A stretch of 64,000 nt of DNA, taken from positions 1 through 64,000 of the forward strand of contig NZ_LMUW01000048.1 of the NCBI RefSeq assembly GCF_009765735.1. The letters are read 5' to 3'. The DNA is from Xenophilus sp. L33 (GTDB taxonomy: Bacteria; Pseudomonadota; Gammaproteobacteria; Burkholderiales; Burkholderiaceae_C). Positions 12,335 through 22,917 of this stretch are shown piece after piece; position 1 is the first letter of the stretch, and the number at the start of each line of letters is the position of its first letter. The notes under the pieces are model-generated. The model had not been told where the DNA came from and did no database searches. It saw only the letters and a program-made list of their open reading frames with translations. Position numbers and translations under genes: made by a program.

Positions 12335-13558
12335 TCAAGTGTTGGCGACCTTGCGCGCGATGAGTGCGTCCTTGGTTGCCGATGCCAACGACTCGAGCGA
12401 ACGCACCTGTTCACTGTCGAGTTGACGCGCCTTGAAGTCGTAGACGCACAAGGTCCCCAGGGTGTGGCCATGGACGGCCAATCGGACCGCGGCGTAGAAG
12501 CGGATGAAGGGCATGCCGCGCACGAGCGGATGGTCCGAGAAGCGCCGGTCGTGCAAGGTGTCGGTGACGACCACCGTGTTCTCTGTCACGTCGAACAACA
12601 CGTCCGAGAATGAGGTGTCTGCGGGCGATTCGGTGGCAGCGAATCCGACGCGGGACTTGAACCAGTCCCGGTCCTGGTCCAGGAAGCTGATCGTCGCGAT
12701 CGGCGCCGCGAGCATTTCGCTGGCGCGGGTGGCGATGTCGTCGAAGATCTTTTCGGACGGCGAATCCAGGATGTCGAACATGCGCAGCAACGCGAGCCGA
12801 TCCCTGTCATGACGCACGCTCACGTGAGATCGATCGATCTCCATGGCGTCGTAGGCCGGCCCCAGGCGGTCGTATTCGAACTTGATGACCGCATAGCATT
12901 CACATGCGCGCGCCTCCAGGGCGTGACGGTTGTCGACCGTGATCTTGCGGCGGCCGGAGGTGATCAGTCCCTCCTTTTGCAGCTGGGTCGCCGCCATGTT
13001 CACGCTGGCGCGGCGAACGCCCAGCGTGGCGGCAATCATTTCTTGCGTCGTCGCGATGGAGTCGCCCGGAAGGCGATCGAGCATGGTGAGGATCCACCGA
13101 CAGAGTTGCTCGTCGATGGTGTGATGGCGGTTGCACACGGCGGTCTGCGCCATCTGCGCGACCAGCACCTGCGTGTAGCGCAACAGCAATTCGGTGACGC
13201 AGCCGCCTTGTCCGAACTCTTCCCTCAATTGCCCGGCGCTGAGCCGAAGCGCAGTCCCGCCGCACTGGACCATCGCGCAGCTGGCGGTCGTGCCGTCGCT
13301 CATCAGGCTCGACGTGCCGACGACGCCTTCGTTGCCGATGACGCAAAGCTCGGTCATGTCGCCGTCGGCCAGCACGTAGAGCAGCGACACCACCGCGGTC
13401 ACCGGGAAATAGACGTATTCGCGGGGCCCGCGCGGCTCGTGCAGGACCTGGCCGAGCGTCAGGTCCACCCAGCGCAAGTCGTCCTGCCAGAGACCTGGTG
13501 CGATCCGGGTCAGGGTGTCCAATAGGTGATTGCTTCCGAGCGTGGCCTCGATTGCAAT
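12335..13558 (-). CDS. CRP/FNR-type regulator with C-terminal GAF domain (copy 1)
   Basis: The domains are a cNMP-binding-like beta roll (about residues 20-150), a CRP-type winged helix (about 155-235, ATTQEMIAATLGVRRASVNM), then a GAF domain (about 255-400, with FDILDSPSEKIFDDIA and GTLCVYDFKARQL). It is a clear paralogue of the gene at 21697-22917. No ATG or GTG begins the frame. A TTG at 13522 would give 395 residues. AUU at 13558 gives 407, matches the paralogue's length and N-terminus position for position (GSN-LLD block), and has GGGAG 7 nt upstream, so it is chosen here. The gene diverges from a small helical protein gene at 13846. The effector of neither sensory domain is known. Confidence 0.85.
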   Translation of the reverse strand: MAIEATLGSNHLLDTLTRIAPGLWQDDLRWVDLTLGQVLHEPRGPREYVYFPVTAVVSLLYVLADGDMTELCVIGNEGVVGTSSLMSDGTTASCAMVQCGGTALRLSAGQLREEFGQGGCVTELLLRYTQVLVAQMAQTAVCNRHHTIDEQLCRWILTMLDRLPGDSIATTQEMIAATLGVRRASVNMAATQLQKEGLITSGRRKITVDNRHALEARACECYAVIKFEYDRLGPAYDAMEIDRSHVSVRHDRDRLALLRMFDILDSPSEKIFDDIATRASEMLAAPIATISFLDQDRDWFKSRVGFAATESPADTSFSDVLFDVTENTVVVTDTLHDRRFSDHPLVRGMPFIRFYAAVRLAVHGHTLGTLCVYDFKARQLDSEQVRSLESLASATKDALIARKVANT

Positions 13559-13680
13559 GGCAATGCTCCCGTCAACTCTGGAACACTACTACTTGTGACT
13601 GACGTTCGACTCGGCGATCAAGTTGTAGGCGCTTCAAGTCGAGCGCTTCACTGACAGGGTTTGCCCCGCTAGATTTTCTA

Positions 13681-13696
13681 TCTGCCAAAAGGCAGA
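13681..13696. promoter_or_regulatory. Perfect inverted repeat between divergent genes
   Basis: TCTGCC-AAAA-GGCAGA forms a perfect 6-bp dyad. It lies 21 bp upstream of the -35 element driving the small gene at 13846 and 123 bp upstream of the CRP-GAF start, so it is a candidate operator for one or both. Confidence 0.4.
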
Positions 13697-13716
13697 GCGT
13701 GGTCCACAAGAATTCA

Positions 13717-13745
13717 TTGTCTTTCGAGCCAGTGCTTTTTAGAAT
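13717..13745 (+). promoter_or_regulatory. Sigma70-like promoter for the small helical protein gene (copy 1)
   Basis: TTGTCT (13717-13722) and TAGAAT (13740-13745) are spaced by 17 bp and point toward the gene at 13846, leaving a leader of roughly 95 nt. Confidence 0.5.
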
Positions 13746-13845
13746 GGTCCGACCAAGGCCCCGCACCGGCTGCGACACCCATCGCACAGCGCCATGTACC
13801 GCCGCGACCTTGCACCCGAGCTTCATCAGCCAGGAGCAGACAGTC

Positions 13846-14103
13846 ATGAACGACACCGCGCGCACCCGAGCCTTGGCCCAAACCATCGCGAAGATTCATT
13901 GGTCCATTGCCTATGTGGGGCTGGACTCGATGTTGGAGCCCGGGGACTTGCAGTCTCCGACGCAGGCCGCCGAGATGTCGGCCGCCCTGGCACTGGTCGA
14001 CGAAGCCCTGGCCGAGTTGCGCGCTGCCTACCGGCTGGTGCCGGCGGCCGCAGCGGCCTCAACTCGTCGCGTGCAGATTGCCGATGAGATCGAAGATCAA
14101 TGA
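13846..14103 (+). CDS. Small helical protein paired with CRP-GAF regulator (copy 1)
   Basis: The 85-residue product is all-helical by pattern: RALAQTIAKIHWSIAYVGLD, a short loop, then MSAALALVDEALAELRAAYR, and an Ala-rich tail. It is a paralogue of the product of 21282-21500: the two align from the first Met (both have HW at residues 18-19) through the ALAE-RAA block. Both are divergent from a CRP-GAF gene. No family is recognised. The 3' end overlaps the convergent gene 14059-14319 by 45 bp. It may be a target or a binding partner of the regulator. Confidence 0.65.
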   Translation: MNDTARTRALAQTIAKIHWSIAYVGLDSMLEPGDLQSPTQAAEMSAALALVDEALAELRAAYRLVPAAAAASTRRVQIADEIEDQ

Positions 14104-14319
14104 CTGCGGTGCCTTGGACTGGACGCGACGCAGATCCTCGAGGAGCAATTCACGCGTCTTGAAGCCGGCGGCACTGCGGGCGATGGGGCCGCTGTCCTGG
14201 CCTTGCAGCACCCAATGCCAGAGGCCGGTGGCGCGCTCCTGCGAGATCTCGAATCCCGCTTCTCCGATTGCCTTTGCATCTCTCGTCTTTCTCAGACGCT
14301 CGCCAAACGCTTCGTACAT
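14059..14319 (-). CDS. Small hypothetical protein
   Basis: The 86-residue product starts MYEAFGERLRKTRD and contains GLWHWVLQGQDSGPIARSAAGF followed by a helix ELLLEDLRRVQ. The GxWHWxL...IARSxxGF pattern resembles the small DUF1508/YegP-like beta-alpha unit, but the match is loose. The last 45 bp overlap the convergent small helical protein gene, so one of the two frames may end differently in related strains. Function unknown. Confidence 0.5.
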   Translation of the reverse strand: MYEAFGERLRKTRDAKAIGEAGFEISQERATGLWHWVLQGQDSGPIARSAAGFKTRELLLEDLRRVQSKAPQSLIFDLIGNLHATS

Positions 14320-14451
14320 TCATGGCCTCCTGTTTCGATACACAGAAGATGCCGCATCGGGTCTGCCCGGTTCTATCCGGCAGCGTACACAAACGCCATC
14401 GCACTCTGTACGGAATCGAACAGTCGATGAGCAGTCGGCCATGGGTCGATT

Positions 14452-14883
14452 TCATGCAGCGGCGGCCTTGACCGGCGCATTGAGCGGCGCATCGACCGGC
14501 AACCATTGCACCAGGCACCACGCCATTTCCGGCAGCAGGAACAGCCACAGCACCGGAGCGCCGGTGACGGCCAGGGCCCGGGCCATCCAGGTCGCGAAGA
14601 GGCCACGCGCGACTCCGTCGTAGCGGCCCATACGAAGGCTCGGCTGGCGCAGTCGCAATACCGACCAGACCATCACGAGGCTGCCCAGAAGACAGGCGAT
14701 CAGCACGTGAAAGACGTCGAAGGCCGGCAGCATCGCGCCGCCCAGCGACTGGTTCATCGCCGAGAGTTGATCGCGCAGCAGCGCGAAGGTCCATGGGGTT
14801 GCGAAGGGCGCAGTGACCAACACGTCGTAGAGGGCGCTGGCGCGCACGATGCAGCGATAGCCGGAGGTCGAGAAAGAGGGCAT
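14452..14883 (-). CDS. Membrane protein divergent from a MerR regulator
   Basis: From ATG 14883 the product is 143 residues with about three transmembrane helices: VFHVLIACLLGSLVMVWSVL, GLFATWMARALAVTGAPVLW and the following LFLLPEMAWCLVQWL. No family is recognised. The gene shares its upstream region with merR-type gene 14969-15388, and a perfect MerR-style operator lies between them, so it is the likely regulated target. An upstream in-frame ATG at 14991 would run through the operator and is rejected. Confidence 0.65.
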   Translation of the reverse strand: MPSFSTSGYRCIVRASALYDVLVTAPFATPWTFALLRDQLSAMNQSLGGAMLPAFDVFHVLIACLLGSLVMVWSVLRLRQPSLRMGRYDGVARGLFATWMARALAVTGAPVLWLFLLPEMAWCLVQWLPVDAPLNAPVKAAAA

Positions 14884-14919
14884 GTGAGAGGGCTCTGAAG
14901 GGATCGAATTTGCATGGTC

Positions 14920-14943
14920 GACCCTGGAGTACGATCCAGGGTC
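14920..14943. promoter_or_regulatory. MerR-family operator
   Basis: GACCCTGGA-N6-TCCAGGGTC is a perfect 9-bp inverted repeat, with the ACCCTGGA arm style typical of MerR-family binding sites. It lies 37 bp upstream of the membrane protein start (14883) and 25 bp upstream of the regulator start (14969). Confidence 0.75.
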
Positions 14944-14968
14944 AAGCACTTCGTCCCACGGACCGCCC

Positions 14969-15388
14969 ATGCAAATCGGAGAACTTGCCAATGCCGTGGG
15001 CCTGAGCCGGGACGCCTTGCGCTTCTACGAGAAGCGCGGCCTCATCGCCTCGGTCCGTCGCGACAACGGCTATCGCGAGTACCCGCCGGAAGCTGTCGAC
15101 TGGTTGCGCTACGTGCGCACGGCCCAATCGCTGGGTTTCACCCTGGCCGAGATCGAGGCCGATCTTCCGTTGCTCGCGGCGCCGGGAACGTCCGCGCCCC
15201 TGCTGCGCGAAGCCCTGCAGAAGAAGATCCGGAGCATCGACGAGCGCATCGAGGGTCTCTCGGCCTTGCGCCAGGAGATCTCACGGCGACTCGAAGAGGG
15301 CATGGCCACCTGTCCGCTCGCGCCCGGCGAGGCGTTCGCGAAAGCCTCCGGCTTGCCGGTTCAGTACGGCGCGTTGATCACCACGTAG
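14969..15388 (+). CDS. MerR-family transcriptional regulator
   Basis: The 139-residue product starts MQIGELANAVGLSRDALRFYEKRGL with the wing RDNGYREYP, the diagnostic MerR DNA-binding domain (residues 1-70). A long dimerisation coiled coil follows (LREALQKKIRSIDERIEGLSALRQEISRRLEE). Only one cysteine is present, near the C-terminus (ATCPLA), so the classical multi-Cys metal site of MerR/CueR/ZntR is absent and the inducer is unknown. The operator at 14920-14943 and divergent membrane gene fit the usual arrangement. Its 3' end overlaps a convergent gene by 28 bp. Confidence 0.9.
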   Translation: MQIGELANAVGLSRDALRFYEKRGLIASVRRDNGYREYPPEAVDWLRYVRTAQSLGFTLAEIEADLPLLAAPGTSAPLLREALQKKIRSIDERIEGLSALRQEISRRLEEGMATCPLAPGEAFAKASGLPVQYGALITT

Positions 15389-15879
15389 GCGCCGTTCTGC
15401 GGCTGGTACCAGGTCGAGCCGCACTGCTGGTAGATCAGGCCGCCATAGTTGACCGGCACGCAACCGGCCGGCACCGTCCTGACCATCGACCCCACCACCG
15501 CAGATGTCACCGCCACTGTCGCGGTGACGGCCGCCGCCGTCGCGACCGGGTGGTAGTAGTCGTTGTCCCAGCCACCGTGGTAGCCATTGCGGCCGTTGTT
15601 GGCGACCACCACGTTGCGATTCACGTTGACGTTGTTGACGCTGGTGTTGCGCACGTTGTTGGCGCGCACGTCGCGGTTGGCGTTGTTGATTTGCGGCCGC
15701 GGGCCGCCGCCGCCGCCGGGGCGGCCGCCACCCATTCCGCCACCGCCCATGTGGCCACCGCCACCGCCCATGTGCCCGCCGCCGCCACCGGGGCGTGCGT
15801 CGGCGATCGGCGCGAACGCGACTGTCGAGATCACCAGGAAGGTCAGCGGCTTCAGCAATCGGCGGATCGTCGGGTTCAT
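15361..15879 (-). CDS. Exported Gly/Asn-rich protein
   Basis: The 172-residue product has a signal peptide (MNPTIRRLLKPLTFLV...PIADARP), then a Gly-rich low-complexity stretch with repeated GGGGGHMGG units (about residues 30-60) and an Asn/Val-rich stretch (NNVRNTSVNNVNVNRN). A hydrophobic segment (ATAAAVTATVAVTSAVVGSM) precedes a C-terminal block PAGCVPVNYGGLIYQQCGSTWY with two cysteines. This layout recurs in exported betaproteobacterial proteins of unknown function. It lies 11 nt downstream of the DUF2092 lipoprotein gene and is probably co-transcribed. Confidence 0.75.
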   Translation of the reverse strand: MNPTIRRLLKPLTFLVISTVAFAPIADARPGGGGGHMGGGGGHMGGGGMGGGRPGGGGGPRPQINNANRDVRANNVRNTSVNNVNVNRNVVVANNGRNGYHGGWDNDYYHPVATAAAVTATVAVTSAVVGSMVRTVPAGCVPVNYGGLIYQQCGSTWYQPQNGAYVVINAPY

Positions 15880-15890
15880 TCGAGACTCCT

Positions 15891-16733
15891 TCACTTGGCT
15901 TCCAGTTCGTGCAATTCGACCTTGGTCGCGCCCTTGGGCGGCGCGAAGGTGAAGACCGCGTCGTTGAAGCCCGGGCTCACGTTCCAGTTGATCAGGTGCA
16001 CCGATTGCGGCCGCGCCTCGTCGGCGCGATTGATGATCACCAGCTTGCGCGGCAGCGGACGGCCGTCGGCGGTGATCCAGATCTGCCAGTCGTAGTCGCC
16101 TTGTCGGAAGGCGAAGTGATTGCAGAGGTCGTTGCCGATGAAGTCCTGGCCTGCATTCATCGCGGAATCGATCTTGTCGAGCGGGGCCGCGGCGGTGCCC
16201 CACAGGAACAGGTCGGACAGCGGGATCTCGATGTCGTAGCGTTCCTTCATCTTGGTGACCAGCTCATCGACGCTGCCGCCGAACTCGACGCTCGAGTAGT
16301 AGTTCTGCGCCGGCAGGAAGACCGTCGCGAGCTTGCCGTTGAAATAGATCTCGCGCTCGTTGCGGGCGCTGAACATGCGCGCCCGCAACCGGTTCGGGCG
16401 TTGCACGTCGATGTCGGCATGGGCGCTGTGCTGCAGCTTCTGACCATCGGCCAGCACCACTTCGCCGGTCAACTCGGTCGAGACGTGATAGCGCTTCAAG
16501 CTCTGCAGGAAGGCGCCCATGTCCTTCAGGGCCTGGATCGCGCCGGGGTTCACTGCATCGGCCGCCGTCGATGCAGTCGACCCGGCGGGCGCCGCGGACG
16601 GCATGGCCGCCGGCGGGGCAGCTCGCGCTGCGGGCGTCGCCGCGGCAGGCGCTGCAGTTGTCGTTGGCGGCTGTGACGTGCATGCCGCCAGGGCCACTGC
16701 CAGCAGTGTCCCGGCAATCAATGTGAACTTCAT
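15891..16733 (-). CDS. DUF2092-family lipoprotein
   Basis: From ATG 16733 the product is 280 residues with a lipoprotein signal (MKFTLIAGTLLAVALAAC, lipobox LAAC, lipidated Cys18). A Pro/Ala/Thr linker follows (about 20-60). The body is LolA-like beta sheet: FLQSLKRYHVSTELTGEVV, RPNRLRARMFSARNEREIYFNG and LPRKLVIINRAD, matching DUF2092. Such proteins resemble periplasmic lipoprotein carriers; a direct role is not known. It is the first gene of a two-gene unit with the Gly-rich exported protein 11 nt downstream. Confidence 0.8.
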   Translation of the reverse strand: MKFTLIAGTLLAVALAACTSQPPTTTAAPAAATPAARAAPPAAMPSAAPAGSTASTAADAVNPGAIQALKDMGAFLQSLKRYHVSTELTGEVVLADGQKLQHSAHADIDVQRPNRLRARMFSARNEREIYFNGKLATVFLPAQNYYSSVEFGGSVDELVTKMKERYDIEIPLSDLFLWGTAAAPLDKIDSAMNAGQDFIGNDLCNHFAFRQGDYDWQIWITADGRPLPRKLVIINRADEARPQSVHLINWNVSPGFNDAVFTFAPPKGATKVELHELEAK

Positions 16734-17090
16734 ATCGGCATCCTCGAAAGAGTGCGACTTCGCCATCGGACCGGGTTGGAGCATTACCTCGATCGGTGGT
16801 TTGCGCAACTGAGGACTACCAATAAGCCCCAGCAGCCTCCTGTGTTGAAAAGTTCACACAAGGAGCGTTAGGCGATGTTACGAATGGAACCTTTGAGTTA
16901 CATTCGTCAGGTGGCGGTCAGCACGGCCGAGCGCCGCGCAGATGGGTCGAGCAGACATCGAGACAAGCGTGCAGGTTTAGAAAGAATACTTTAGTATTCA
17001 TTATGGTCATCGGCGAGGGTCACGTCTCCGTCAAATCCGGGGTCCAGCATCCGCGTCGGTTGTTCGAACAATGCAGTGAGGGATGGTGCG
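16734..17090. promoter_or_regulatory. Intergenic region with palindrome GAATAC-N4-GTATTC
   Basis: This 357-bp divergent intergenic region contains no supported gene. It is markedly AT-richer around 16975-17005. A perfect dyad GAATAC-TTTA-GTATTC sits at 16984-16999, upstream of the DegT aminotransferase gene, and is a candidate operator or promoter element. A second AT-rich patch (16840-16915) may hold the promoter of the DUF2092 gene; no clean -35/-10 pair was found. Confidence 0.4.
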
Positions 17091-18251
17091 ATGTCGGTGC
17101 GAAGCCATGACAATTTCCTGATCTTCGGGTCGCCGAAGATCGAGGAGGACGAGATCCGCGAAGTCGAAGCCGTGATGCGTTCCGGCTGGCTGGGCACCGG
17201 GCCGCGGGTGACCCGGTTCGAGAAGGCATTCGCGCAATACCGTGGCGCGCCGCATGCCGTGGCGTTGAACTCCTGTTCGGCTGCGCTCCATCTCTCGCTG
17301 CTGGCGTCGGGTGTCGGCCCGGGCGACGAAGTCATCACCACGCCGCTGACCTTCTGCGCGACGGCCAACGCCATCATTCATGCGGGCGCGACACCGGTGC
17401 TCGCGGACATCGATCCGCTCACGTCCAACATCGATCCCGAGCAGGTGCGCGCCAAGTTGACGCCGCGCACGCGAGCCATCGTCCCGGTGCACTTCGCGGG
17501 CAGGCCCTGCGACATGGACAGCTTGATGGCGATCGCGCGAGACCAGAACCTCAAGGTGATCGAGGACTGCGCGCACGCGATCGAAGCCGAGCACCGCGGC
17601 CGCAGTGTCGGCACCATCGGCGACTTCGGCTGCTTCTCGTTCTATGTGACCAAGAACGTCATCACCGGCGAGGGCGGCATGGTGCTCGCCCGCAACGAGG
17701 AAGACGCCTCGACCATCAAGGTGCTGGGCCTGCACGGCATGACCAAGGACGCGTGGAAGCGCTTCGGCGACGAAGGCTTCAAGCACTATCACGTCGTCGC
17801 GGCCGGCTTCAAATACAACATGATGGACTTGCAGGCCGCGATCGGCCTGAAGCAGTTGGAGAAGGTCGAGACGTACTGGCTGCGACGCAAGTCGATCTGG
17901 GACCGGTACATGAACGAGCTGGCCGACCTGCCGATCGGCTTGCCCGCGAGTCCGGAGTCCGACACCCGTCACGCGCATCACCTCTTCACCGTCGAGATCG
18001 ACGAGGCGCGCTGCGGCATCGCGCGGGACGCCTTCCTCGACGCGATGACCGCGCAAGGCATCGGCATCGGGGTTCACTATCTTTCGCTCACCGAGCATCC
18101 GTACTACCAGGAAGCCTTCGGCTGGCGCCCGGAAGACATGCCTCACGCCACGCGGGTGGGCCGGCAGACGGTGTCGCTTCCGATCTCGGCGAAGTTGACC
18201 GACCAGGACGTCTCCGACGTCATTTCCGCGGTACGGCTGGTCCTGCCATAG
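17091..18251 (+). CDS. DegT/DnrJ/EryC1/StrS-type sugar aminotransferase
   Basis: The 386-residue product has the full PLP fold: GTGPRVTRFEKAFAQY, ALNSCSAALHLSLLA, DEVITTPLTFCATANAI, VIEDCAHAIEA and the PLP lysine K188 in FYVTKNVITGEGG. The family transaminates nucleotide-linked keto-sugars during surface polysaccharide or glycan synthesis. ATG 17091 is preferred (GAGGG 8 nt or so upstream); GTG 17076 is an alternative. A glycosyltransferase gene follows 16 nt downstream, so the pair probably makes and transfers an amino sugar. No other sugar genes are nearby. Confidence 0.92.
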   Translation: MSVRSHDNFLIFGSPKIEEDEIREVEAVMRSGWLGTGPRVTRFEKAFAQYRGAPHAVALNSCSAALHLSLLASGVGPGDEVITTPLTFCATANAIIHAGATPVLADIDPLTSNIDPEQVRAKLTPRTRAIVPVHFAGRPCDMDSLMAIARDQNLKVIEDCAHAIEAEHRGRSVGTIGDFGCFSFYVTKNVITGEGGMVLARNEEDASTIKVLGLHGMTKDAWKRFGDEGFKHYHVVAAGFKYNMMDLQAAIGLKQLEKVETYWLRRKSIWDRYMNELADLPIGLPASPESDTRHAHHLFTVEIDEARCGIARDAFLDAMTAQGIGIGVHYLSLTEHPYYQEAFGWRPEDMPHATRVGRQTVSLPISAKLTDQDVSDVISAVRLVLP

Positions 18252-18267
18252 CGGCTCGGAGACTGGC

Positions 18268-19218
18268 ATGCCGTTCTCCATCCTCATCCCCGCGTATGCC
18301 CGACCGGAGCAACTCGGCGAGGCCCTCGCCAGCCTCGCCCGGCAGGAACGCCTGCTGATCGGCGAGATCATCATCGGCGACGACAGCCCGCAGGCCTACT
18401 GGCCGAAGAACCGTCAGGCCATCGCCGACAGTGGCCTCGCGCACCTCGTCGACTACGTGCCGAGCGATCCGCCCAAGGGCACCTATCCCAATCAGTGGTT
18501 CCTGGCGTCGAGGGCGAAGTTCGACCAGTTGCTCTTCCTGCACAACGACGACCTTCTTCATCCCGGCGGCTTGCGTGCGCTGGCCGATGCCTGTTCGGCC
18601 GAGACCGACCCGCGCGTGAAGCTGTGGTTCGGCACCCAGCAGATCATCGACGAGAACGGCGCGGTGAACGAGTCGGCCACGTCGCACTACGACAACTGGT
18701 ACGGAAGACAAGGGCCGGCTGCGGCGCGACCGGCGTGGCAGTGGTGCCTGACCGAATCGATACCCTCGGATGCCTTCCTGGTGGAGCGGGCCACCTACCT
18801 GCAATACATGCGCGGCGAACGCGACGGCAACATCGGCGACTGGGCGTTCGCGGTGCGCCTGGCCAACGGCGGCAACTGGGCGCGCTTCGTCGGGCAGGTG
18901 GTCTCGAGCTACCGGGTTCAGACCGGCTCCGTCACGAACAGCGGCCGCGGCGTCGATTCGCATCGCTCCTTCGAATTCGCCCGCGAGTTGCAAGTGCCGC
19001 CGGAATTCGAAGCAGCGAGAGCGGACCGCTTCTACCGCCACATGCTGGTGGTGGCGAGTCGCTACGCGCGCGACGGCGAGCGCTTGAACGGATGGCGCGC
19101 CTTCTTCTCGTCGCACATTCCGTGGCGGCAGCGCATGAGTATCCGCGCGGCGAGGGTGATGGTGATGCTTTCGACGCCGCGGCCGCTTTGGCTGTGGGCC
19201 ATGCGGTACAAGGATTAG
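18268..19218 (+). CDS. Family 2-like glycosyltransferase
   Basis: The 316-residue product starts MPFSILIPAYARPEQLGEALASL, with IIIGDDSPQAYW and LLFLHNDDLLHPGGL. This is the GT-A nucleotide-sugar fold with a DD-type metal motif (HNDD, about residue 93). A C-terminal region without transmembrane helices ends in an amphipathic basic stretch (WRQRMSIRAARVMVML). It acts in the cytoplasm or at the inner membrane face. It follows the DegT aminotransferase gene by 16 nt, so the donor may be the amino sugar made by that enzyme; that is an inference. Confidence 0.88.
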   Translation: MPFSILIPAYARPEQLGEALASLARQERLLIGEIIIGDDSPQAYWPKNRQAIADSGLAHLVDYVPSDPPKGTYPNQWFLASRAKFDQLLFLHNDDLLHPGGLRALADACSAETDPRVKLWFGTQQIIDENGAVNESATSHYDNWYGRQGPAAARPAWQWCLTESIPSDAFLVERATYLQYMRGERDGNIGDWAFAVRLANGGNWARFVGQVVSSYRVQTGSVTNSGRGVDSHRSFEFARELQVPPEFEAARADRFYRHMLVVASRYARDGERLNGWRAFFSSHIPWRQRMSIRAARVMVMLSTPRPLWLWAMRYKD

Positions 19219-19243
19219 CGGGCGGTTCGGGTCTCCAGCCTTG

Positions 19244-19273
19244 TTGACGGCGCGGAACTTGACGCCGTATTGT
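19244..19273 (+). promoter_or_regulatory. Candidate sigma70-like promoter
   Basis: TTGACG (19244-19249) and TATTGT (19268-19273) are 18 bp apart, upstream of the exported protein gene at 19374. The -10 is weak. Confidence 0.4.
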
Positions 19274-19373
19274 CGCTACCGGCCTTGCCGGCCTCTCGCC
19301 GCCGTTCTTGCAGTGCGCGATGCGGCAGCGTCCAGCCGGACTCATCGTCGAATGGTCTCGTGAAGGAGCCAGG

Positions 19374-19733
19374 ATGAAGATCTTTCTATTCTCAGTGCTT
19401 GCGGCATTGGCGTGTTCGGCCCTCGCGCAACCGAAGGTCGTAGATGGTGTGCTGACTGACTCGAAAGGCATGACCCTATATGTCTGGGACAACGACCTGA
19501 CAGTGCCTGGGAAGATTCAATGCGTGGGCGTCTGCGTGATGAGTTGGCCGCCCATGTTGGCAGGGCCCGCGGACACGCCTACTGGCGAGTACACGCTCAT
19601 GGTTCGCGAGGATGGCAAGAAACAGTGGGCTTACAAGGGAAGGCCGCTGTACCTCTGGGTGAACGACAAGAAGCCCGGCGACCGAACGGGCGACGGCTTC
19701 CGTGCGGGGACCTGGCATCTGGTGCGGCCCTAG
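19374..19733 (+). CDS. Exported PF03640-type repeat protein
   Basis: The 119-residue product has a signal peptide (MKIFLFSVLAALACSALA), then LTDSKGMTLYVWDND, KIQCVGVCVMSWPPMLA and GKPLYLW-type block GRPLYLWVNDKKPGD. These are the two repeats of the 'secreted repeat of unknown function' family (PF03640), with the usual CxxxC pair (Cys about 55 and 59). The start follows GGAGCCAGG. It heads a row of exported proteins (cache-like pseudogene, binding protein) on the same strand. Members are often regulated by stress sigma factors; no evidence for that here. Confidence 0.85.
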   Translation: MKIFLFSVLAALACSALAQPKVVDGVLTDSKGMTLYVWDNDLTVPGKIQCVGVCVMSWPPMLAGPADTPTGEYTLMVREDGKKQWAYKGRPLYLWVNDKKPGDRTGDGFRAGTWHLVRP

Positions 19734-19806
19734 CGACCGTCGACTCGCGGCCAACTGCCGTCCTTGATCTGAATGTATCGGGCCGCCACTTTGGTGGGAG
19801 AAATCA

Positions 19807-20282
19807 ATGCTGAAGCACACCATCATCTGCGCTGCGTGGGTCAACTTCGCAATTGCCAATGCTGCGTTGGCCCAGCAGGCGCCGCCGGCATCCGAGAAGA
19901 CGATGCAGATCGAGGCCATGGTCAACAAGGCCGCGGCACTGCTCGACAGGGAAGGCAAGGCAGCGCTGCCTGCGTTCCGGGTCAAAGACTCCGAGTGGTA
20001 CCACGGCGACTCCTACCTGTTCGTCTACGACCTGACTCGAATGTCCTGCTGAACCCCGCCTTTCCGTCCCGGGAGGGGACGAACGTTTTCGGAGAGAAGG
20101 ACGCCAACGGAAAACTGTTCCAGGAAGCCATCGTCCAGACTGCCGCGGCGAAGGGCTCGGGATGGGTCAACTATGTGTTCCCGAAACCAGGGCAGACGCA
20201 ACCATCTCAGAAATGGACCTACGTCAAGGCCGTCAAGATGGATGGGGTTCAAGGCCTCGTCGCATCGGGCTTCTATCCTTGA
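19807..20282 (+). pseudogene. Cache-domain periplasmic sensor-like protein, frameshifted
   Basis: The first frame (19807-20052) has a signal peptide (to ALAQQ) and the start of a single-cache domain ending SYLFVYDLT. The rest of the same domain continues in the -1 frame to 20282: SNVLLNPAFPSREGTNVF, KDANGKLFQEAIV, GWVNYVFPKPGQ and KAVKMDGVQGLVASGFYP. Restoring one G after 20034 (CTG-GAC) rejoins the frames as VYDL-DSNVLLNP, the normal cache pattern. A single-base deletion, or a sequencing error, is the simplest reading. If intact it would be a secreted small-ligand-binding domain of about 158 residues. GGGAG precedes ATG 19807. Confidence 0.8.
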
Positions 20283-20296
20283 CGGGTCGCACGGAC

Positions 20297-21247
20297 ATGC
20301 TCATTTCCAGACGGTCCGTGGTGTGCGGCCTGGGGCTTGTCGGCGTCGGTCTTGCCCAACGAAGCGGCGCGCAAGGATCACGGACCGAATTCCGAGTCGG
20401 CTACCAGAAGGCCGGCTTGCTCAGCGTCGCCAAGGCGCAGGGCGTCTTCGAGCGGAGGCTTGAGCAACTCGGAGTCGAAGGCGTGAAGTGGTCGGAGTTT
20501 GAACCTGGACCGGCAATGATGGACGCGATCAGTGCGGGTGCCGTTGATTTCGGGTGGCTCGGCGATGCGCCCGCCATCATCGCCCAGTCGGCGGGCGCGA
20601 AATTCGTCTACGCGGCATGCATGCCCGCTTCGCAACATGGGCTGCTGGTGCAGCAAGGATCCGGCCTGCGCTCTCTGGCGGACATTCAGGGCAAGAAGAT
20701 CGCCTTTGCTCGCGGCACCAGCGCGCAGAGCGTCGTCCTGCGGCTGCTGGCCAAGGCGGGCCTGACCTACGCTGACATCGTGCCGGTCTATCTTTCGCCC
20801 AGGGACGCCTCGGTGGCGTTCTCGCGCGGGGAGGTGGATGCGTGGTTGATCTGGGACCCATTCTTTGCGCAGGCGGAACGAGTGCAGCAAGCCCGCGTGA
20901 TCGCCACCACGAAAGGCATGGCAGGCCTCAACTCCGTCTACGTGGCAAATGCCGACTTCGCCGCGAAAGACTCCAAGGTCCTCGCCGCGGCCATCGATGA
21001 AGTGAGAAAGCTGACCGGATGGGCGGCGCGAAATCGCGAGCAGCTCGCGCAAGCGACTTCGGCCGCCATCGGCATCGATCTCGACGCGGAGCGTGTCGCG
21101 ATAGGTCGCACCGAATTGGTCGAAAAACCCATCACGCCTGCGACAGTGGCCGAGTTGCAAGAAACCGCCGATGCCTTTCTCAGGATCGGGGTCATTTCCA
21201 GGCCAGTCGTCATTCACGACGCCGTCTGGTCGCCGCATGCTCGTTGA
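20297..21247 (+). CDS. SsuA/TauA/NrtA-like substrate-binding protein
   Basis: The 316-residue product has a twin-arginine-like n-region (MLISRRSVVCGLGLVGVG) and then FRVGYQKAGLLSVAKAQGVFERRLEQLG, FEPGPAMMDAISAGAVDFGWLGDAP and VDAWLIWDPFFAQAE. These are hallmarks of the aliphatic sulfonate/taurine ABC binding proteins. Permease and ATPase genes are absent nearby, so it must work with a remote transporter or is an orphan. It starts 14 nt after the frameshifted cache gene and may share its transcript. Confidence 0.88.
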   Translation: MLISRRSVVCGLGLVGVGLAQRSGAQGSRTEFRVGYQKAGLLSVAKAQGVFERRLEQLGVEGVKWSEFEPGPAMMDAISAGAVDFGWLGDAPAIIAQSAGAKFVYAACMPASQHGLLVQQGSGLRSLADIQGKKIAFARGTSAQSVVLRLLAKAGLTYADIVPVYLSPRDASVAFSRGEVDAWLIWDPFFAQAERVQQARVIATTKGMAGLNSVYVANADFAAKDSKVLAAAIDEVRKLTGWAARNREQLAQATSAAIGIDLDAERVAIGRTELVEKPITPATVAELQETADAFLRIGVISRPVVIHDAVWSPHAR

Positions 21248-21281
21248 CGGTAGCGAATCAATGCGACGGGACAGAAGTTTC

Positions 21282-21500
21282 TCAGGGCGCGTCGACCAAC
21301 ACCACCCCAGGCCCGAAGGCCGCGCGAACCTCCGCGAGCGCATGCTCGATCAACCGCATCGCAGTCTCGAAATCGACCGGCGGCATGCCCGGCACGGCAT
21401 CGTGCGGGGCCAATGCAAAGTCCAGGCGTTCGCATGCAATCGCCCAGTGAAACCTGGCGACGGTGCGTGCCATGGCACATTCCGACGAGGACTTTTGCAT
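21282..21500 (-). CDS. Small helical protein paired with CRP-GAF regulator (copy 2)
   Basis: From ATG 21500 the product is 72 residues: MQKSSSECAMARTVARFHWAI, a Pro-containing loop, then TAMRLIEHALAEVRAAFG. It aligns with the product of 13846-14103 from the first Met onward, with HW at the same positions 18-19, which is why this start is preferred over TTG 21539. Like copy 1 it is divergent from a CRP-GAF gene. No Shine-Dalgarno is visible. No family is recognised. Confidence 0.6.
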   Translation of the reverse strand: MQKSSSECAMARTVARFHWAIACERLDFALAPHDAVPGMPPVDFETAMRLIEHALAEVRAAFGPGVVLVDAP

Positions 21501-21602
21501 TGTGAATTCGATCGTAGCGACTTTGCCGGTGGCCGCCAAGACGGTCGGCGGGGAGTTACACGATGCGATTCGCGATGCCGACGACGGCGTGCAGTCGATA
21601 GC

Positions 21603-21614
21603 GGGTAGTTACCC
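21603..21614. promoter_or_regulatory. Inverted repeat GGGTA-GT-TACCC between divergent genes
   Basis: A perfect 5-bp dyad lies 83 bp upstream of the CRP-GAF start at 21697 and 103 bp upstream of the small gene start at 21500. It may be an operator for the pair. The same arms with a 6-nt centre occur at 29421-29436. Confidence 0.35.
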
Positions 21615-21696
21615 TATGCGGCCTTTGGAATTACCCAGCGCTTAATCGACGACACACCGCAGAGGAATCCTCTCCTCGGGCGAACCAGGGCATCTC

Positions 21697-22917
21697 ATGG
21701 CATCGGAGATCGCGCCCGGAAGCAATCTGCTTCTGGACGCCCTGGCTCGCAATGCGCCCGGCCCCTGGCAAGGCGAGTTGCAACTCGTGGACCTGCCGCT
21801 CGGCAAGGTCCTGCACGAGCCCTATCTGGTCCGCGACCAGGTGTACTTTCCCGTCACCGCGATCGTCTCGATGCTCTACGTGCTCTCGGATGGCGACATG
21901 GCCGAGATCGCGGTCATCGGCAATGAAGGTGTCGTGGGCCTGTCGATGTTCATGGGCGATGGCAATTCGCCGAGCTGCGCGATGGTGCAATCCGCAGGCA
22001 GTGCCATCCGGCTCAAGGCCTCGGTCCTCAAGGACGAGTTCGTGCGCCGGGGCCAGGTCGGCCATCTGCTGCTGAGGTACACGCAGGCGTTGATCGCCCA
22101 GATGTCTCAGACAGCCGTGTGCAACCGCTACCACCCGGTCGAGCAGCACTTCTGTCGGTGGATCCTCCTGATGTTCGACCGGCATGCGGGCAACGAGATC
22201 GTCATGACGCAGGAGATGATCGGCGCGATGCTGGGCGTGCGCCGCGCCAGCGTCAACACGGCCGCGACCCAGCTGCAGAAGGACGGCCTGATCACCTATC
22301 GACGCGGCAGGATCACGCTGCTCGATCGCCCGGCGATGGAGGCGCGCGTCTGCGAGTGCTATGCGGTGGTGAAGGGCGAGTACGACCGCCTGACGCCGGC
22401 GCTGCTGAAGGCCTCCATCGAGGAGCCGCCCTGGAGCCTGCGCGCCGACGTGCAGCGCCTGGCCTTCCTGCGCCGCTTCGGCATCCTCGACTCGCCCTCC
22501 GAGGATGTCTTCGACGACATCGCCCGCCAGGCGAGCGACGCCTTGGGCGTGCCGATCGCGATGATCAGCTTCCTCGACGAGAAGCGAGACTGGTTCAAGG
22601 CCTGCATCGGCTACGCCGCGACCGAGTCGCCTGCGGAGACCTCCTTTTGCGACGTCTTCTTCCGCATGAACGAGAACACGCTGGTGGTGGAGAACACGCT
22701 GGAGGACCGACGCTTCTCGGCGCATCCGTTCGTGCGCGGCATGCCTTTCATCCGCTTCTACGCCGCGGTGCGCCTGGTCGCCGAAGGCCACACGCTGGGC
22801 ACCTTGTGCGTCTACGACTTCAAGGCGCGGCGGCTCGCGCGGGAACAGGTGCAGGCCCTGGAGTCGCTGGCCGGCGCGACGCTCGACGCGCTCAGGTCAC
22901 GCGGCGCGAAGGTCTGA
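21697..22917 (+). CDS. CRP/FNR-type regulator with C-terminal GAF domain (copy 2)
   Basis: The 406-residue product begins MASEIAPGSNLLLDAL. A cNMP-like beta roll (about residues 20-150) contains VYFPVTAIVSMLYVLSDGDM. A CRP-type winged helix (about 155-235) contains MTQEMIGAMLGVRRASVNTA. The GAF domain (about 250-400) contains FGILDSPSEDVFDDIARQA, AETSFCDVFF and LGTLCVYDFKARRL. It keeps a cysteine (SFCD) where copy 1 at 12335-13558 has serine. DNA-binding residues look intact; ligands are unknown. It diverges from the small helical gene 21282-21500 across a 196-bp region. Confidence 0.9.
   Translation: MASEIAPGSNLLLDALARNAPGPWQGELQLVDLPLGKVLHEPYLVRDQVYFPVTAIVSMLYVLSDGDMAEIAVIGNEGVVGLSMFMGDGNSPSCAMVQSAGSAIRLKASVLKDEFVRRGQVGHLLLRYTQALIAQMSQTAVCNRYHPVEQHFCRWILLMFDRHAGNEIVMTQEMIGAMLGVRRASVNTAATQLQKDGLITYRRGRITLLDRPAMEARVCECYAVVKGEYDRLTPALLKASIEEPPWSLRADVQRLAFLRRFGILDSPSEDVFDDIARQASDALGVPIAMISFLDEKRDWFKACIGYAATESPAETSFCDVFFRMNENTLVVENTLEDRRFSAHPFVRGMPFIRFYAAVRLVAEGHTLGTLCVYDFKARRLAREQVQALESLAGATLDALRSRGAKV

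Follow-up and report, generated by a model that had tools for sequence, protein, structure and literature searches.

What is the role of a very small gene that lies divergent from a regulator, and does it belong to that regulator alone? The question is raised by a 64,000-nucleotide stretch of Xenophilus sp. L33 (contig NZ_LMUW01000048.1 of assembly GCF_009765735.1, positions 1 to 64,000; hereafter the window), in which the same gene pair occurs twice: a regulator joining a CRP-like part to a GAF domain (CRP-GAF) faces a gene for a small protein. The initial annotation described a two-gene module duplicated as a unit, with the small protein as a target, partner or antagonist of the regulator. 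The duplication is borne out by further copies in the same genome, and most other members of the small family lie away from CRP-GAF genes. The reading we favour, to which we give about an even chance, is that the pair combines a CRP-GAF regulator with a small output gene whose controller is exchangeable, and not with a dedicated partner or antagonist. The features of the two pairs are as follows, with identities referring to copies on contig C120 of the same genome.

12335..13558, minus strand: CRP-GAF regulator A; the CRP-like part spans about 12845-13558 and GAF about 12341-12844; initiation at ATT or TTG
13559..13845: divergent intergenic region of pair A; 68% identity with the C120 copy
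13668..13682: palindrome GCTAGATTTTCTATC, candidate operator
13717..13745, plus strand: sigma-70-like promoter pattern facing small A; 9 of 12 matches, pattern only
13846..14103, plus strand: small protein A, 85 amino acids, Variovorax small family
21282..21500, minus strand: small protein B, 72 amino acids, Variovorax small family
21501..21696: divergent intergenic region of pair B; 62% identity with the C120 copy, palindrome-free
21697..22917, plus strand: CRP-GAF regulator B; CRP-like part 21697-22404, GAF 22414-22908

A divergent gene pair copied as a unit

The coordinates and strands first assigned to all four genes hold, and the two pairs are mutually inverted, with about 7.2 kb between the small genes. 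Regulators A and B are paralogues with 65% identity over 402 amino acids and no gap, and small A and small B are homologous, with 37% identity over 62 amino acids (E 2e-13). Chance similarity between helices does not account for this second match: the alignment scores 110, whereas the best of 5000 shuffles scores 61 (0 of 5000 reach the observed value) and the top score among 153 control short open reading frames (ORFs) of the window is 40. Single-sequence searches with small A and small B each retrieve the other (E 2.2e-7 and 5.7e-8), and a profile of the family matches them at E 7.2e-20 and 6.8e-24, respectively, E values that are not independent because both proteins are seed rows. The HW reported at residues 18-19 is present in both proteins, but only the W is invariant across the 24-row family alignment. 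Compared with its C120 copy over 75 codons, small A has a ratio of nonsynonymous to synonymous substitution (dN/dS) of 0.15; the ratio is 0.24 for small B (37 comparable codons only), 0.12 for regulator A and 0.16 for regulator B. All four look like real genes under purifying selection as proteins.

The genome contains seven genes with both CRP and GAF parts and six small genes, one of them split into two pieces (seven rows in total). Four of the seven CRP-GAF genes, namely both window genes and a further two on C120, stand divergent from a small gene. Window positions 12354-14042 align with C120 at 81% over 1,703 bp, and positions 21308-22903 at 79% over 1,608 bp. Each alignment runs nearly end to end through both genes and the space between them, and the unit was thus copied whole. 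The other three CRP-GAF genes, on C70, on C126 and at 25 kb on C120, have no credible small neighbour in a lax search, in which the best match covers 16 positions at E 0.12 and lies about 1 kb away on C126. Likewise, four of the six small genes face a CRP-GAF gene, and those on C24 and C34 have no such neighbour. On C120, one pair consists of a frameshifted regulator and an intact small gene and the other of a frameshifted small gene and an intact regulator, which argues that neither gene strictly depends on its neighbour.

The small gene lies beside different regulators

The small family is present in 41 of 101 Variovorax genomes (E 1e-4; 72 rows at 71 places), and seven loci from named Variovorax strains carry the gene. 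It was absent from 40 other genera at E 0.001 among 101 relatives searched. A family-wide search of 349 genomes (best 17 candidates per genome) gave two weak partial matches outside Variovorax (E 4.0e-4 and 5.2e-4), which we take as chance; as judged from these sequence searches, the family appears genus-restricted and is credible in Variovorax alone. A tie between the small protein and CRP-GAF genes, as initially supposed, is not found across the genus: only 4 of the 71 places adjoin a CRP-GAF gene, all of them in this genome, and small genes occur mostly away from such regulators. Surroundings were read for 69 of the 71 places, the remaining two being in genomes without a CRP-GAF match.

Small sequences that scored above 40, contained no stop and reached 48 amino acids, with weaker or broken rows excluded, numbered 59 distinct members; we classified these by genes within about 1.5 kb, with REC, CRP, CRP-GAF and S24 genes as the tested regulators. 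Eleven lie divergent, at short distance, from a single-domain response regulator (REC; identified by Pfam for two examples and by profile for the rest), three are divergent from CRP-GAF, two are in tandem with CRP and two in tandem with REC. The fourth CRP-GAF pair is not among the 59 because its small gene is broken. No regulator was initially assigned to 41 members, of which those at loci L084, L157 and L160 were later linked to S24 genes, leaving 38. At L078, L084, L157 and L160, a gene with HTH_3 and Peptidase_S24 domains adjoins a small gene, and at L158 a fragment of such a gene does so. The S24 genes at L078 (17034-17645) and L084 (10226-10840) are about 78% alike in DNA; read by eye, the C34 copy has a possible self-cleavage Ala-Gly pair, which is changed in the C120 copy.

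In a tree of 57 of the 59 distinct small proteins, the three intact CRP-GAF-linked ones group together (90/87), and they fall within a larger group of 16 rows (90/84) that also contains 10 of the 11 REC-divergent ones, a placement that fits replacement of the controller. In Variovorax sp. J22P271 (L116 2476-5231), a REC gene is divergent from a row of CRP, CRP, a 94-amino-acid ORF and the small gene, a layout that is perhaps intermediate between the REC-linked and CRP-linked arrangements. At another locus, in a single Variovorax genome (G001; L104 3456-8771), three family members lie inside 6 kb with neighbours that resemble Ku and DnaE2 by eye, not by profile.

Searches of Pfam, NCBIfam and PHROGs (PADLOC was not searched) gave no credible known-family match for the small proteins. 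Among 24 family members, the best Pfam match was DUF6888 (E 0.029; 4 members), and the best PHROGs matches, both weak, were phrog_15635 (E 0.0031; 1 member) and phrog_36254 (E 0.0072; 7 members), the latter carrying no function in PHROGs. The best NCBIfam match, from a search with P0002 and P0004 only, had an E value of 0.061, and a profile search of PDB sequences returned nothing under E 0.2. The small protein is predicted to have a two-helix shape. We reject a phage or plasmid origin of the family on searches of limited scope: one member gave no match in phages, two members gave none in plasmids, and comparison of alignment A3 with viral contigs gave 47 stretches and no relative.

A palindrome common to small and S24 genes

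When pair A is compared with its C120 copy, a conserved palindrome stands out, which reads GCTAGATTTTCTATC at window positions 13668-13682 and GATAGAAAATCTATC on C120. With up to three mismatches to the C120 word, 780,507 bp of loci contain 14 sites, against 1-3 in each of five block shuffles. Of the sites other than the starting two, seven are no more than 600 bp from a small gene (at L084, L157, L158, L159 and L160), two are upstream of S24 genes (L078 and L157) and the last three appear unconnected. The S24 gene of L084 has a weaker site immediately upstream. Small genes with the palindrome upstream are those of window pair A, its C120 copy and the five loci just named, and small A shares this element with S24-linked genes. 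The scanned loci had been chosen for their small, REC or CRP genes, and nearness to small genes is therefore partly built in. A consensus count in the window (1 match, 0 in 100 shuffles) is circular as evidence because the window site helped to build the consensus. The arrangement suggests that an S24 repressor may bind the palindrome as an operator. If so, two inputs may meet between the genes of pair A.

REC-small pairs of several other Variovorax share a second element, AGTGGGCGYTCAGG followed by GGTAGGA or a close variant, found at L114 4937, L118 4927, L119 4922, L120 2150, L173 about 3002 and L172 about 2988. It points away from REC, 57-66 bp from the REC start (L114, L172 and L173, by eye), and is kept even at loci without a small gene. 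The strict pattern occurs at 3 places in 101 genomes, all adjoining REC genes, a distribution on which we reject a wide regulon. One of these places is in this genome, with a long ORF resembling ligD by eye as the divergent neighbour.

Within the window, an 86-amino-acid ORF without a Pfam match (14059-14319, minus strand) overlaps the end of small A, and a portion of this ORF recurs near the C120 pairs with 81% DNA identity (L079 1555-1703).

The CRP-GAF fusion and its closest relatives

The domain order first described for the regulators was a cyclic-nucleotide (cNMP)-like domain, a CRP winged helix and GAF. Its last two elements stand: in regulators A and B, HTH_Crp_2 scores 47.6 and 56.1 bits (Pfam cut-off 27) and the C-terminal GAF domain 51.6 and 47.3 bits (cut-off 22.4). 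By contrast, cNMP_binding reaches 20.1 and 16.5 bits, under its cut-off of 27.5; the N-terminal cyclic-nucleotide-binding fold is thus a possible one, and on these scores we disfavour the reading of either protein as a cAMP receptor. By eye, neither regulator clearly shows the Arg and Glu through which E. coli CRP contacts cAMP. The boundary of regulator A at 13558 is kept, but the codon there reads ATT, in place of the ATG carried by the C120 copy, and the listed ORF begins at TTG 13522. Regulator A may be weakly translated or initiated from TTG 13522.

All seven CRP-GAF genes form one clade in a tree of 20 (100/100). Outside this genome, two-domain CRP-GAF genes were found neither in 101 relatives (E 1e-60; best 18 candidates per genome at most) nor in 300 genomes of the order (E 1e-100; best 6 at most). 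In a phylum search of 398 genomes (E 1e-50; best 4 per genome at most), which shows four of this genome's own seven genes, the matches listed from other genomes end by residue 261. Among the matches listed in the relatives and phylum searches, none from another genome extends beyond residue 266, so that the fusion is found only in one lineage among these matches; a fusion could escape detection within searches of the best candidates per genome, and about 40 Variovorax genomes of the small-family search lay outside the 101 relatives. A single fusion event followed by spread, with REC the older neighbour, is the simplest reading.

The closest counterparts each share part of this architecture. 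VYFP-type Crp/Fnr regulators, common in Burkholderiales and with widespread homologues, match the first ~240 residues, but in the relatives and phylum searches the matches listed from other genomes end by residue 266, where CRP-GAF continues into GAF. The GAF domain of a diguanylate cyclase (PDB 4zmu) matches residues 257-388 of CRP-GAF B (E 4.7e-21); the similarity is confined to GAF, which in CRP-GAF B is fused to a DNA-binding regulator. In a plasmid search, five of the best 15 of 2885 records, all from Methylobacterium, match 80% or more of CRP-GAF B at a single place, and among the plasmid matches listed those reaching the GAF part are from Methylobacterium. In three of these records examined more closely, CRP and GAF-PAS are two separate adjacent genes. 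A Burkholderia plasmid match extending to residue 304 was considered as a second fusion and rejected, being a CRP gene alone without a GAF match.

On plasmids of Methylobacterium currus, the gene for a GAF-PAS-HWE kinase begins about 20 bp beyond a CRP gene, in the same CRP-then-GAF order, and an 85-amino-acid protein is encoded divergently upstream of the CRP gene, as in the window pairs (L199 2495-6453; L200 2494-6808, with a similar 85-amino-acid protein). The system differs in having two separate genes, a kinase output and a small protein that in L199 belongs to DUF6894; this protein has no match to the small-family profile and was rejected as a member. The layout suggests a possible route to the CRP-GAF fusion. 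Regulons of HTH-S24 (LexA/CI-like) repressors offer a possible further parallel, with HTH_3 and Peptidase_S24 genes adjoining some small genes and palindromes upstream of both; a search of the window found no S24 gene. A system combining CRP-GAF with a small protein was not among the papers listed in searches of the open-licence literature, which is weak evidence.

A proposed output gene with an exchangeable controller

We propose that each pair comprises a one-component regulator, with a CRP-like fold, winged helix and GAF sensor, and a divergent small output gene, the pair having been copied as a unit within one Variovorax lineage. The small protein would act independently, with a probable role in stress or accessory functions, and its gene would have been placed repeatedly beside whichever regulator controls it: REC in most regulator-linked relatives, HTH-S24 in others and CRP-GAF here. 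At pair A, CRP-GAF and S24 inputs may converge at the candidate operator. Control of the small gene by its neighbouring regulator is what we infer from these arrangements. The suggested stress link comes from DUF4142, CsbD, an ATP-dependent DNA ligase domain and a ferritin-like protein, identified by Pfam near CRP-GAF or REC genes of this genome. Several observations count against the proposal. The assembly is a draft of 224 contigs with 2.27% contamination; 38 of the 59 distinct members have no tested regulator nearby; and the small-family tree is built on 64 columns, with long branches and bootstrap values that have not settled. Pair B has no palindrome, its best score being −3.3 where the nine sites used range from 18.8 to 28.0, and the palindrome of pair A lies closer to the regulator (110 bp) than to the small gene (164 bp). 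Within the stretch read, no S24 gene is near the L159 site or the window site, and the REC-small intergenic element is missing from both window pairs.

A small protein dedicated instead to the CRP-GAF regulator, as its partner or antagonist, would agree with the copying of the pair as a unit, the single group formed by CRP-GAF-linked small proteins and the four of six small genes in this genome that face such a regulator. We consider this distinctly unlikely, given that other Variovorax keep the family beside structurally unrelated regulators or none, that three of seven CRP-GAF genes lack a small gene and that both C120 pairs have one broken member. That the family changes neighbours speaks against a protein private to CRP-GAF and in favour of an output gene under different regulators; of the roles first proposed, target is therefore favoured, whereas partner and antagonist sit poorly with a family that adjoins REC, S24 and plain CRP genes. 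The 38 members without a tested regulator also keep alive the view of the small gene as a passenger of accessory regions, its adjacency to regulators being functionally meaningless, and several loci do resemble accessory regions with other paralogous genes (by eye, with Pfam for ten genes). This too is unlikely, because short-distance divergence from REC recurs in 11 distinct members, because the excess of palindrome sites over block shuffles is gathered upstream of small and S24 genes, and because the small genes are under purifying selection. The compactness of the duplicated divergent unit and the very small size of one of its genes could also recall a toxin-antitoxin-like or addiction pair. 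We reject this as extremely improbable: the genes are not kept together, each persisting alone or with a broken counterpart, the small family often has no tested regulator, and its proteins lack a credible match in the libraries searched. Very unlikely in our view, and of a different kind, is that the small family is a portable adaptor coupling REC, S24 and CRP-GAF to one common Variovorax target, in which case a swap of neighbour would rewire the input and leave the adaptor unchanged.

Implications for Variovorax regulation

If the small gene is an output gene with an exchangeable controller, these loci would provide a compact case of one small gene switching controller several times within one genus, with a possible intermediate still extant in the REC, CRP, CRP, small ORF and small gene of Variovorax sp. 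J22P271. The analysis adds a small protein family without a credible entry in the libraries searched and a CRP-GAF fusion that, among the matches listed, occurs in a single lineage. The transition from a CRP gene beside a GAF kinase to one CRP-GAF protein is open to direct comparison.

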